From Clostridia bacterium (GTDB lineage Bacteria; Bacillota; Clostridia; Christensenellales; Aristaeellaceae), in assembly GCA_017550745.1 (NCBI GenBank), contig JAFZOG010000152.1, positions 1-64,000 of the forward strand: a stretch of 64,000 bases of DNA, read 5' to 3'. The notes under the pieces were generated by a model that saw only the letters and a program-made list of their open reading frames with translations, had not been told where the DNA came from and did not search any database. Positions 32,297 through 36,953 of this stretch are shown in pieces; within the stretch, counting starts at the first letter, position 1; every line of letters begins with the position of its first letter. The position numbers and the translations under genes are program-made.

Positions 32297-33703
32297 TTAC
32301 CGCTTTCCCGCCCTCACCGGCGCTCTCCAGCCTGCCAGCGCTTTCTGGCCTTCCGGCGTAACAGGCTTGATCCATTTGCCCCGGAAGAGATGCACCTGCA
32401 TCAGGACATACCGGATGGGTTCGTCGATATAGCAGCAGGCGAACACAAGCAGCGTAGGCAGCTTCCATACCATGCCGGTGAGCCATACGCAGGGAATGAG
32501 CATTGCCCACATAAACACGATTTCCAGGATCGTGCCGTACGTAGCGTCGCCCGCCGCGCGGAAGGTGTCGTTCTGGGTCCAGTTGCCCATGCGGATCACT
32601 GCCACCACGCCGAAAACAGCGATCATACCGAACGCGATGGAAAAGCTGTCGCCGCTCATGCCCATGATCTGCAGGATGGGGGTATGCAGCAGCACCAGCA
32701 GCACGCACACACTGGCGATGAATCCCTGGCAAAGATATACCAGCCGCCATGCCCGGCGGTACGCGATATCGATGTTTCCCGCGCCCACCTCTTTGCCGAC
32801 CAGGATGGAGGCGGCATTGGTAAATCCGGCGAAGAAGCCGATGATCAGGCCCTCCAGCGTGCGGAATACAGCCAGCGCGGCGATGGCCTCTTCCGGCTGG
32901 CGGCCCAGAACGACGTTGATCACCATGTTGCCCGCGCCGATGAGCACTTCGTTCATCAGGATCGGAAAGCACTTGCGGAAATAGGATCTGATCAAATCAG
33001 CCGTCCAGCGGAAATGCTGTGAAAAAGCCAGCAGGTAAGGGTGCCCGTTCCGCTTCGAAAGCAGAATAATGACCAGGGTGCTCACGCATTGGGAGATCAC
33101 CGTCGCCAGCGCCGCGCCGCGCACGCCCATGGCAGGCGCGCCAAGGTTGCCAAAGATCAGCACCCAGTTCAGAAATACGTTGATGCCCACCGCCGCGAAA
33201 GAGCCGTACAGTGGGATCGTCACCCGTTCCGTGCTGCGAAGCAGCGCCGCCATCGCCATGGAAAACACCATCAGCGGATAGGAAAAAGCCGCAATGCGCA
33301 GATAGTCCACCCCGATGCGCTGAATGGATTCCTTATCGGTATACAGCCGCATCACCGCTTCGGGAAAGAAAAGGCCGAGCAGGAAAAAGATGAGGGCTAC
33401 CGTCATCATGCACGTTAATGTCAGGCCGTAGGAGCGGTTGATGCCGTCGCCGTCCCGTGCGCCCCAATATTGGGAAAAGAACAGCATTCCGCCGCCCACG
33501 AAGCCCCAATAGCAGCTGAACATGAGCGACGAAAACTGCGCGCACAGGCCCACCGCCCCCACTTCGGTCTTGCCCAGGGAGGAAATCATCATCGTATCGA
33601 TCATCGACCCCGTGGTGGTCAGCAGGTTTTGCAGCGCAACCGGCACCGCGATCACGGCGACCTTCATCAAAAAATCGCGCCAGTCAAACTTTTGCTGTTC
33701 CAT
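32297..33703 (-). CDS. MATE family efflux transporter
   Basis: The 468-residue protein has twelve hydrophobic segments. The family region VALQNLLTTTGSMIDTMMISSLG is at its N-terminus and SQYWGARDGDGINRSYG after helix 2. I chose the ATG at 33703, which has GTGGAGG 7 nt upstream, over the ATG at 33715. It is not close to the other two MATE proteins by eye. Its upstream region is made of three structured tandem repeats, each carrying an extended -10 motif facing this gene, so its expression could depend on them (inference). Confidence 0.9.
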   Translation of the reverse strand: MEQQKFDWRDFLMKVAVIAVPVALQNLLTTTGSMIDTMMISSLGKTEVGAVGLCAQFSSLMFSCYWGFVGGGMLFFSQYWGARDGDGINRSYGLTLTCMMTVALIFFLLGLFFPEAVMRLYTDKESIQRIGVDYLRIAAFSYPLMVFSMAMAALLRSTERVTIPLYGSFAAVGINVFLNWVLIFGNLGAPAMGVRGAALATVISQCVSTLVIILLSKRNGHPYLLAFSQHFRWTADLIRSYFRKCFPILMNEVLIGAGNMVINVVLGRQPEEAIAALAVFRTLEGLIIGFFAGFTNAASILVGKEVGAGNIDIAYRRAWRLVYLCQGFIASVCVLLVLLHTPILQIMGMSGDSFSIAFGMIAVFGVVAVIRMGNWTQNDTFRAAGDATYGTILEIVFMWAMLIPCVWLTGMVWKLPTLLVFACCYIDEPIRYVLMQVHLFRGKWIKPVTPEGQKALAGWRAPVRAGKR

Positions 33704-33731
33704 GCCATCCTCCACGCCGACTTTTATATTT

Positions 33732-34001: not shown

Positions 34002-34036
34002 AAAAAAAGCGCGGGAGCGGATACTCCCGCGCTTTC
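34002..34036 (-). terminator. Terminator after the Crh-like/nucleotidyltransferase gene
   Basis: On the minus strand AGCGCGGGAG pairs with CTCCCGCGCT, followed by seven T. It separates the murB-whiA operon from the repeat array. Confidence 0.9.
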
Positions 34037-34042
34037 CTGGTT

Positions 34043-35074
34043 TCATTTTGATTCATTCAGTTCAGAAAGTGCGTCATAGCAGAAGTTTTCTGCCTGGCCC
34101 TCGTCATAGCTCATGCCCAGGCCCGTTTCATAAGCGTTCAGGGCTGCCTGAATGACCCGCTGGTGCGTGGAATCCATATGCTTGAGCGCCCATGCGCCGC
34201 CTTCCTTTTTGCTCAGCATCAGGTTTTCACGCGCGAAAGCCACGGCCCGGCAAAGATTGAGCACATAATAAACGGGATTTTCATGCAGATGCTCCGCCGC
34301 GTCCTGCACGTCCGAAAGGATGGCGCAAAGCACGTCCTCCCGCCTGGGACGGTCAAAGACCCGGGGCACGCTGGGCCCGTACAGCGAGATGCCGAAAGCG
34401 TGCAGCGCGGCGATGTGGCAGATCAGATCCGGATCTTCCCCGTGCATCCGGGAGCAGAATCCCCGCACGTCCCGCTCGTAATCCCGCTTGTGTTTATTGG
34501 AATAATGCAGCTCAAAGGGGATGGGATAGTGAATATGGGAGCAATGCTTTTCCAAAAGCACGCTCATCTCAAACCCCTCCGGCGGCGCTTCCGGGGCCAG
34601 GGAATACAACAGCTCCACCAGCTCGATTTTCTTTTCGATGGAAACGCGCCTGCGCACCACCACCAGAAAATCAATATCGCTGTGTTCCCACAAAAAACAC
34701 TGAGCCGCCAGGGATCCATGCAGGTACACGCCTACCAGGTTGTCTTGAAGAATGTACAGATAGCGCTCTTTGATATAGCGCATCAGATTGATCGCATCGG
34801 TATAATTTTTGGGGGGAGAAACGCCGCTTTCCAGCATATCGCATATTGCGTCGCATGCCTCCTTCTCATCCGGCCCGTCGACGATCAGGAACACAGGACT
34901 GTTGCCTGTCTCGCCCAGGCACAGGATACCCAGCATGGATTTGCCGTTGATGGTACGTTTCTGATGCTCAAAAATAACGCGCGAAGCAAACCTGGTGGCT
35001 GTGTTCACCAGTTGTTCGCTTTGTTTTCTGCTCATTGGCGTCACGCTGGACAGATTCAGCGCTTTTCTGATCAT
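34043..35074 (-). CDS. Crh/HPr-like domain fused to AadA-like nucleotidyltransferase
   Basis: The 343-residue protein lies directly after whiA (26-nt gap), where B. subtilis has crh. Residues 1-85 align with HPr/Crh: LVNTATRFASRVIFE, INGKSMLGILCLG, then VDGPDEKEACDAI. With the ATG at 35074, the regulatory serine falls at position 46, as in HPr and Crh. The phosphotransfer His15 position is Ser and Arg17 is Lys, so phosphocarrier function is unlikely. Residues 110-343 resemble AadA-type adenylyltransferases: YLHGSLAAQCFLWEHSDIDF (GS and DxD motifs), FEMSVLL with the third acidic residue, and the DUF4111-like helical domain (GISLYGPSVPRVFD). The nucleotidyl acceptor is unknown. Confidence 0.8.
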   Translation of the reverse strand: MIRKALNLSSVTPMSRKQSEQLVNTATRFASRVIFEHQKRTINGKSMLGILCLGETGNSPVFLIVDGPDEKEACDAICDMLESGVSPPKNYTDAINLMRYIKERYLYILQDNLVGVYLHGSLAAQCFLWEHSDIDFLVVVRRRVSIEKKIELVELLYSLAPEAPPEGFEMSVLLEKHCSHIHYPIPFELHYSNKHKRDYERDVRGFCSRMHGEDPDLICHIAALHAFGISLYGPSVPRVFDRPRREDVLCAILSDVQDAAEHLHENPVYYVLNLCRAVAFARENLMLSKKEGGAWALKHMDSTHQRVIQAALNAYETGLGMSYDEGQAENFCYDALSELNESK

Positions 35075-35100: not shown

Positions 35101-36051
35101 TCAAGCGTTGTCCGTTTCGGTGTTCTCTTTTCCAATCATAGCCATCAGCCGCCGCATCCGGTGATTGACCCCGGACTTGCCGATGGGTTCTTGCAGCATC
35201 TGCCCCAGCTCCTCCAGCGACGCCTCGGGATGCAGCATCCGCAGCCTGCCGAGCTCCTGCAGTTCCTGGGGCAGCGCGCCCAGGCTGTGCGCCAGGGAAT
35301 ACGACGTGATGGCGCGGGCCTGGGATGCGCCGGCGGAAAGCTGTTTTTTCAGGTTTGCCTGGTCGCAGTTCATGGCGCGGTTCGCCCGGTTGCGGGCATC
35401 CCGGTTGATGCGGATGTTTTCCATATCCATCAGGGAGCGGTGGGCGCCCATCAGCGCAAGGCAGGACACCACGTCGTCGCCCTTGCGGACGTAAACGATT
35501 TCTTCATCCCTGCGGCGCGCTGTTTTGCCTTCGATCCTGCTTTTCGCCAAAATCCTGATCAGCGTATCAGAGCGGGCTTCGGAGGAAATAAACTCCAGGC
35601 GGTAGGCCTGCTCCGGCGATGTGACGGACCCGCCGCCCAGAAAAGACGCCCGGATGAACGCCGCCCGGCAGCATCGCCGTGTCATGGCGGCCCGAGGCAC
35701 GCCTTTATATACCGGCCCGGCTTCTGATTCCTGAATCATACGCAGCGCCACCAGCAGGCGCTTGCTATCCGCTTCCGGCACGGTGAGGATGGACAGCCGC
35801 CGCCCGCCCAGCCGTTTATGGCGGTTGAACTCCAGCTGCGGCGTGATTTCCATGCGGCGCTTGAGCAGCAGGAAGATCCGCTTCGCCAGCGCCGGGTTTT
35901 CTGTTTCATACGCTACGCGGATTCTTCCCCTTCCCGCCAGCCGCAGGGAGGCGCAGCATTGGGTGAGCGCGCTCAGCTCAGACAGCATACAGCAGGGTTT
36001 TTCGGGCTGGATGCGCAGCAGTTCTTCTTTCACATCGGAAGAGAAGCTCAT
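35101..36051 (-). CDS. whiA: WhiA, DNA-binding protein (sporulation/cell-division regulator family)
   Basis: The 316-residue protein has the LAGLIDADG-like N-terminus (SFSSDVKEELLR, CCRAAFIRASFLGGGSVTSP) and the C-terminal helix-turn-helix (HPEASLEELGQML, KSGVNHRMRRL). It is found in almost all Gram-positive bacteria. It regulates sporulation in Streptomyces and affects division and chromosome segregation in Bacillus. Its ATG overlaps the murB stop (ATGA). The rapZ and yvcK genes that usually precede whiA in Bacillota are absent here. Confidence 0.95.
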   Translation of the reverse strand: MSFSSDVKEELLRIQPEKPCCMLSELSALTQCCASLRLAGRGRIRVAYETENPALAKRIFLLLKRRMEITPQLEFNRHKRLGGRRLSILTVPEADSKRLLVALRMIQESEAGPVYKGVPRAAMTRRCCRAAFIRASFLGGGSVTSPEQAYRLEFISSEARSDTLIRILAKSRIEGKTARRRDEEIVYVRKGDDVVSCLALMGAHRSLMDMENIRINRDARNRANRAMNCDQANLKKQLSAGASQARAITSYSLAHSLGALPQELQELGRLRMLHPEASLEELGQMLQEPIGKSGVNHRMRRLMAMIGKENTETDNA

Positions 36052-36953
36052 TTTTCCTCCCCTACGATACGCACCTCGGGCTCCAGCCGCACGCCGTATT
36101 TTTCCAGGACGCGGGCTTGCACCTGCTCCATGAGACGCAGGAAATCCGCCGCCGTCGCCCCGCCCGTATTGATCAGGAACCCAGCGTGCTTTTCGCTTAC
36201 CTGCGCTCCGCCGACGGACAGGCCCTTCAGCCCGGCCCCTTCGATCAGCGCGCCGGCGAAATGTCCGGCAGGCCGTTTGAAGAAGGAACCGGCGCTGGGA
36301 TACTCCAGCGGCTGCTTTTCCTTCCGCCGCGCGGCAAAATCACGCATGGCGGCTTCGATCCGCGCGGGATCGCCGGGCGTAAGGCGAAACTGCGCCCCCA
36401 GGATGATCCACTTTTCCTCCATCGCCCGGGTGTGGCGATACGAAAAATCCATCTCATCCCCGGGAATATCACGCAGGGTATCCCCGTCCAGCACCCGGAC
36501 AAATTCAACGGTCTGCGCCAGCTCGCCGCCATAAGCCCCGGCGTTCATATACACGCCGCCGCCCACGGAGCCGGGGATGCCCTGGGCAAATTCCAGGCCG
36601 GAAAGGCCCGCTTCCTGCGCCTGCCGCGCAAGCACGCTCAGCAGCGCGCCGGCCTGGGCGTAGAGGCAGTTTCCTTTCCGCTGGATATTGGAAAACGCTT
36701 TTCCCAGCCGGATGACCAGGCCGCGGAAACCGCCGTCCCGAACCAGCAGGTTGGAGCCGTTCCCCATCAGCAGGACGGGCAGATTTGCTTCTTTTGCGAT
36801 TCGCAGTAATTCCGCCGCCTGCTTTTCGTTGGCGGGTTCCGCGAAATAATCCGCCGGACCGCCCACCCGGAGGGTGGTAAACTTATCCAAAATTACACAT
36901 GTAACGGGCGGAATATTACCATTCTTGCTGTTTATTTTTTCAAAAAAATCCAT
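36048..36953 (-). CDS. murB: UDP-N-acetylenolpyruvoylglucosamine reductase MurB
   Basis: The 301-residue flavoprotein makes UDP-MurNAc, the second committed step of peptidoglycan synthesis. It shows the FAD-binding motifs TTLRVGGPADYF and LLMGNGSNLLV, then GIPGSVGGGVYMNAGAYGGE, and SAGSFFKRP with the catalytic serine region. The size and the lack of a type I insertion place it in the shorter type II group. It is the first gene of the murB-whiA-Crh-like operon and has a good promoter at 36975-37003. Confidence 0.96.
   Translation of the reverse strand: MDFFEKINSKNGNIPPVTCVILDKFTTLRVGGPADYFAEPANEKQAAELLRIAKEANLPVLLMGNGSNLLVRDGGFRGLVIRLGKAFSNIQRKGNCLYAQAGALLSVLARQAQEAGLSGLEFAQGIPGSVGGGVYMNAGAYGGELAQTVEFVRVLDGDTLRDIPGDEMDFSYRHTRAMEEKWIILGAQFRLTPGDPARIEAAMRDFAARRKEKQPLEYPSAGSFFKRPAGHFAGALIEGAGLKGLSVGGAQVSEKHAGFLINTGGATAADFLRLMEQVQARVLEKYGVRLEPEVRIVGEEK

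Follow-up and report, generated by a model that had tools for sequence, protein, structure and literature searches.

A Crh-like domain joined to an AadA-like nucleotidyltransferase downstream of whiA in Clostridia: a candidate carbon-controlled enzyme

The window, by which we mean the whole analysed stretch of 64,000 nucleotides, carries a gene whose product joins an N-terminal domain of the HPr/Crh type to an AadA-like nucleotidyltransferase (Table 1). The gene is a single unbroken reading frame on the minus strand, with its ATG at 35074 and a stop codon ending at 34043; the original prediction had the limits right, and to them the strand is to be added.

Table 1. The fusion gene, its parts and its surroundings, in positions of the window
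Feature	Position	Strand	Basis
Fusion gene, Crh-like domain and AadA-like nucleotidyltransferase	34043..35074	-	343 aa and stop; ORF, Pfam, relatives
HPr/Crh-like domain, about residues 1-84	34823..35074	-	Pfam PTS-HPr 54.4 bits (residues 1-90); PDB sequence matches within residues 1-84
Ser46 codon in NGKSxLG, predicted HPr kinase site	34937..34939	-	Ser in 16/16 fusions and 17/17 stand-alone Crh-like proteins
Codon 15, Ser where PTS HPr has His	35030..35032	-	S, N, D or T in 16/16 fusions
Nucleotidyltransferase part, about residues 108-343	34046..34753	-	GS...DxD, catalytic-base equivalent Glu169, AadA_C
Codons 133-135, Asp-Ile-Asp, metal-binding DxD motif	34670..34678	-	Asp133 and Asp135 invariant, equivalent to AadA Asp47 and Asp49
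Intrinsic-terminator-like hairpin directly 3' of the stop	34003..34038	-	-26.3 kcal/mol, z -5.46; run of seven T at the end of its 3' arm
whiA, separated from the fusion start by 26 bases	35101..36051	-	TIGR00647 235 bits
murB (name presumed), 3' end overlapping the whiA start	36048..36953	-	ORF; same gene order at fusion loci

Because the fusion follows whiA so closely, is followed directly by a hairpin, and is separated from whiA by a stretch in which the consensus scan listed no promoter-like site on the minus strand, it most likely closes a murB-whiA-fusion operon, the first gene of which we take to be murB. The hairpin itself is absent from the listing of the consensus scan. The same architecture beside whiA was sought in relatives, and in all 19 fusion loci extracted, three of them duplicates, murB and whiA lie upstream of the fusion in the same orientation, which bears out the earlier assignment of the gene to a whiA operon. 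An exporter gene at 32297-33715, presumably of the MATE type, was considered as a functional partner of the fusion and rejected, since it lies beyond the hairpin and is not constant among the loci. It stands downstream of the fusion in the window, in L004-L007 and in L011-L013 (on the opposite strand in L004), and was not found in the 1-2.7 kb downstream of the fusion in L008, L009 and L014-L019, the contigs of the loci from genera g5 and g16 ending too early for a judgement.

The 19 loci comprise 6 taken from GTDB genome contigs and 13 full-length ones found among 200 family genomes, L010 being the window locus itself. The 13 family genomes are 10 of the 11 same-genus genomes listed, one of genus g5 and two of g16. 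The full-length fusion also occurred in 2 of 396 genomes of the order, both already in the family sample, and in 1 of 391 genomes of the class, which is G000, the genome of the window; all these counts come from samples with a loose first look and not from complete surveys. Distinct sequences number 16 of the 19 and belong to three genera of a single, uncultured clostridial lineage; apart from the protein of the window itself they are 46-86% identical to it. With the duplicates left out (L011, equal to L005; L013, equal to L006; L017, equal to L009), the 16 rows of the alignment A1 cover residues 1-340 and contain 3 gap characters altogether. Since 16 distinct sequences from independent genomes share one open frame in this way, the domain boundary is not an artefact, and we reject a sequencing or assembly fusion of two genes, which had been named as one of two outcomes that would refute the original prediction. 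The dN/dS values are 0.03-0.25 in the HPr part (9 pairs), 0.06-0.11 in the enzyme part (9 pairs) and 0.025-0.113 in the short junction (six unsaturated pairs); both domains are under purifying selection. The fusion is missing from one same-genus genome, G030, in which an AadA_C match was also not found and whiA is followed by a frame resembling, as we presume, IMP dehydrogenase; the gene is therefore dispensable there.

The likeness of the first 85 or so residues to HPr and Crh, earlier read from the sequence alone, is significant in profile searches, so that the other refuting outcome, a lack of such a match, did not occur. The Pfam model PTS-HPr (PF00381, cut-off 23) gives 50.6 bits with the whole protein in addition to the score of the domain in Table 1, and residues 1-90 match solved HPr/Crh chains among PDB sequences with a best E of 1.8e-10, those named Crh with 3e-7 to 8.5e-7. 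The NCBIfam cut-offs for HPr were not reached: TIGR01003 gave 44.0 bits with the whole protein and 47.7 with the domain alone against 47.9, and PRK13782 gave 44.3 bits against 123. We consider the HPr domain of the fusion, judging by these scores, a divergent member of the family. Its two signature positions, Ser15 and Ser46 in an INGKSMLG context, are as they had been described. Ser46 in the context NGKSxLG is invariant among the 16 fusions and His15 occurs in none of them, so that the domain cannot take the PTS phosphate. Stand-alone Crh-like proteins of the family have the same combination (His15 in 0 of 17), with Gln15 in L046 and L048.

These stand-alone genes, of which 17 with products of 82-94 aa were read in other genera of the family, follow whiA in 15 loci and lie at contig ends in the other 2, and thus the Crh-type domain of the fusion sits where relatives carry a separate Crh-like gene, in agreement with the operon order on which the original prediction had drawn. 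No nucleotidyltransferase was seen near the stand-alone Crh-like gene in any of the 17 loci. Among the 200 family genomes 52 have a match to the enzyme part alone, at E 1.2e-24 or lower, the G022 copy carrying stop codons; the corresponding figures are 25 of 396 for the order (E up to 1e-20) and 19 of 391 for the class (E up to 1e-30). In 17 of the family loci whiA was never seen within about 1.5 kb of the enzyme. In a tree of 43 enzyme rows a single branch, with support 100/99, separates the 16 fusions from all others. In the WhiA tree of 32 rows a branch (99/95) sets the fusion genomes and G030 apart from the rest, long branches being flagged elsewhere in that tree. The simplest history that these sequences suggest would be a single event in which crh acquired a nucleotidyltransferase gene at its end, followed by vertical descent and one loss in G030.

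The C-terminal part proved to be AadA-like, as predicted: residues 91-343 score 75.4 bits with Pfam AadA_C (cut-off 22.2) and stay under the Pfam cut-offs for Polbeta (26.4 of 26.9) and NTP_transf_2 (18.9 of 21), and a profile built from 26 enzyme sequences matches structures of AadA and of the ANT(9) type with E down to 5e-26. Six of 14 genomes, among them G000 (25.6 bits), have further weak matches to AadA_C. According to the available text of Stern 2018 (PMC6065190), ATP, magnesium and the catalytic base in AadA involve Ser36, Ser46, Asp47, Asp49, Glu87, Asp130, Arg192, Lys205 and Tyr231. Their equivalents in the fusion, S121, S132, D133, D135, E169, D216, R276, K289 and Y315, are all invariant in the 16 fusions; in the 26-row enzyme alignment A2 eight of the nine are invariant, the two metal-binding aspartates among them, and S132 is replaced by Gly in 2 of 16 stand-alone rows. 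Judged by its residues, the ATP/Mg site of the fusion enzyme is intact.

The acceptor side is different. For spectinomycin the determinants proposed in AadA are Glu87, Trp112, Asp182 and His/Asn185, for streptomycin Trp173 and an insertion in addition, and the replacement D182N weakens spectinomycin binding; AadA-like enzymes possibly having another function are also mentioned in the available text of the same source (PMC6065190). Of the 16 fusions a single one has D at the position of Asp182, the rest having N, K, R or H there; Tyr holds the position of His/Asn185 in 16 of 16, and Trp is found at position 173 in none; Trp112 falls in an alignment gap, a nearby column having H, Y or W in all 16. 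The best match among the NCBIfam ANT models, ANT_9, gives 69.7-70.7 bits against a cut-off of 340. The branch has invariant residues of its own, H119, H190, S192, H220, D255 and Y269, such as would be expected of an enzyme with a defined but different acceptor.

The genomic company of the stand-alone enzymes bears on the nature of this acceptor. Among 28 loci examined, at least 7 join the enzyme to, or place it beside, GNAT or APH genes (L023, L030, L110, L114, L112, L036 and L113), a lower bound, since Pfam was run on chosen neighbours. In L023 (727-2226) an APH domain shares one protein with a nucleotidyltransferase of this branch, and in L030 a GNAT domain does so; an APH gene adjoins the enzyme in L112 and a GNAT gene in L036 and L113. 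In L110 (2663-5842) and L114 (2967-6146) a GNAT-nucleotidyltransferase-GNAT protein overlaps a gene of the APH family, beside a DNA alkylation repair gene, the genes of L110 and the three-part protein of L114 being assigned by Pfam and the other L114 genes by similarity; this cluster looks like one for small-molecule modification. No shared neighbour gene was seen in the remaining 21 loci. The presence of GNAT and APH at these loci makes a drug-like acceptor possible. The earlier suggestion that the target is not an antibiotic thus has indirect support from the lost determinants for spectinomycin and streptomycin, within the limits set by these neighbours.

It can be asked whether the fusion is simply a constitutive, antibiotic-like modifier of small molecules, which gained the crh frame mainly for the sake of a steadily expressed operon and whose Crh domain is non-regulatory. 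The ANT models are the nearest named families and the GNAT and APH connections of the kin would fit drug modification, but on such a reading the invariant Ser46 with its NGKSxLG context would be unneeded in all 16 fusions, and the missing Asp182, His/Asn185 and Trp173, the large distance from the ANT cut-off and the 21 loci without a common neighbour speak against it. We regard it as unlikely, with a chance that still has to be taken seriously.

A kinase for the Crh-type domain, which the original prediction presupposed, is encoded in the same genomes: the HPr kinase gene was found in G000 and in 12 of the 13 fusion genomes, in G015 as two pieces at contig ends, and was not found in G176, a genome 81% complete. 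PTS enzyme I was over the cut-off in 4 of 9 fusion genomes tested. The genomes G069, G115, G134, G015, G059 and G030 keep HPr kinase and have no PTS enzyme I over the cut-off.

Crh is a known partner of CcpA. The curated CcpA cut-off was reached by no protein in any of 10 genomes, 8 of them with the fusion, which disfavours a role solely as a CcpA co-repressor; a Crh domain acting only with CcpA is thus less likely, within the limits set by genome incompleteness. In 9 of the 10 there are LacI-type proteins with partial similarity to CcpA, and in G059 (87% complete) a CcpA-like match was not found at E 1e-20.

The fusion is not the sole protein of the lineage that HPr kinase might act on. A second HPr-like protein of about 75 aa, with a DAKSILG motif of the Ser46 type and without His15, is present in all 13 genomes from which it was extracted (L096-L108); one example, L100:1653-1877, scores 23.6 bits with Pfam HPr (cut-off 23). 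It was not found in G000 (89% complete) or in G176 at its 81% completeness. We have dropped the idea that the fusion is the only Ser46-type HPr of its genome, because relatives carry this paralogue and the genomes are incomplete; in view of its presence in the 13 relatives the fusion is not the sole candidate substrate, and the small protein may be a second one. Ten HPr proteins of the His type were read by eye among 53 HPr matches (L001, L002, L066-L069, L071, L073, L088 and L089) and their residue 46 is K, R, N or G, so that in the sequences read the His15 and Ser46 sites sit on different proteins. In L073, from genome G004, the His-type HPr forms the C-terminal end of a long frame resembling what we presume to be a PTS permease.

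On this background the Crh domain could also be imagined to keep an ordinary Crh job, working together with MgsA or a regulator of the LacI family, with the enzyme as an independent passenger on the same polypeptide. The Crh signature kept at the ancestral locus and the LacI-type proteins would suit such a division, but it has against it the CcpA cut-off unreached in 10 of 10 genomes, the lack of a match at E 1e-20 in G059 and the second Ser46-type protein, which could do that job as well, and we hold it for rather improbable.

The joining of the two domains suggests that carbon supply may control the fused enzyme. We propose, at a probability of roughly 0.4, a one-piece carbon-controlled nucleotidyltransferase, in which Ser46, phosphorylated by HPr kinase, would switch the transfer of AMP to an altered acceptor other than spectinomycin and streptomycin. 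With glycolytic intermediates plentiful, HPr kinase would phosphorylate Ser46 of the fusion, and with glycolytic intermediates scarce the phosphate would be removed again. The phosphate state may alter how the Crh domain touches the enzyme joined to it and in this way switch nucleotide transfer. The nucleotide, AMP by homology, would come from ATP, and a hydroxyl group on a small molecule, probably an aminosugar- or aminocyclitol-like one, would receive it.

For the direction of the switch a precedent can be used: according to the available text of PMC9631020, MgsA is inhibited by Crh in the unphosphorylated state, and no interaction of the two is possible once Crh carries phosphate at Ser46. 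By analogy we infer that the unphosphorylated fusion would be the inhibited form. In that system Crh regulates a metabolic enzyme directly and depending on Ser46, as it may do in the fusion; Crh and MgsA, however, are two separate proteins, and the enzyme of the fusion is an unrelated nucleotidyltransferase. The carbon-controlled switch is favoured because Ser46 is kept in 16 of 16 fusions, HPr kinase in 12 of 13 fusion genomes and the nine ATP, magnesium and base residues in all 16 fusions, and because of the MgsA precedent. It is weakened because G030 keeps HPr kinase without having the gene, because relatives have a second Ser46-type protein and because GNAT and APH accompany the kin of the enzyme. 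The fusion can also merely tether or co-express two activities. Adenylylation of a protein, be it HPr kinase, WhiA or the fusion's own Crh domain, with a feedback loop in carbon signalling as its result, would go well with the operon shared with whiA, with a signalling domain as fusion partner and with acceptor residues that differ from AadA's, yet it is highly improbable, as the solved relatives by sequence are small-molecule (aminoglycoside) enzymes and some of the stand-alone kin adjoin enzymes of the small-molecule type.

In Bacillus subtilis Crh is HPr-like, has no His15, keeps Ser46 and is encoded directly downstream of whiA, in a whiA-crh operon, as described in the available texts of PMC10714963 and, for Crh, PMC9631020. 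The domain of the fusion shares with it the HPr fold, the absence of His15, the presence of Ser46 and the position after whiA, and differs in that Crh is a separate small protein there and the N-terminal domain of an enzyme here. The carbon-controlled reading would, by analogy, make of the fusion a Crh-type control of an enzyme with both parts turned into one protein. Compared with ANT(3'')(9) AadA and ANT(9), the enzyme belongs to the same family by profile and has the full ATP/Mg site, but it differs in the acceptor residues, in scores far below the ANT cut-offs and in the added HPr domain. The known HPr fusions in the available text of PMC2405797 are multiphosphoryl transfer proteins (FPr and the dihydroxyacetone-kinase-linked type), whose partner domains, IIA and EI, belong to the PTS or resemble its parts. 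They too join an HPr domain to other domains, whereas the fusion described here has no His15 and its partner is not a part of the PTS. No description of a fusion of HPr or Crh with a nucleotidyltransferase was found in the open-access literature searched, as far as its texts were available, and within these bounds the earlier statement that none is described holds.

We may even suggest, somewhat more tentatively than the switch itself, that this would be the first nucleotidyltransferase under direct intramolecular control by HPr kinase, a control that still works in bacteria deprived of their PTS by loss, and that its enzyme belongs to a widespread clostridial branch with a conserved acceptor pocket of its own. 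If true, the carbon signal at Ser46, which is normally passed to a transcription factor or to a separate enzyme, would here be wired straight into the enzyme. Through this natural and conserved fusion a new partner of Crh is identified without a screen, and enzyme control dependent on HPr kinase becomes testable in one purified protein. Genomes that have HPr kinase and Ser46-type proteins and no detected enzyme I likewise make a role of HPr kinase without the PTS testable. The branch of the enzyme extends across Clostridia, stand-alone in 19 of the 391 class genomes sampled, and its members could be over-called as determinants of aminoglycoside resistance.
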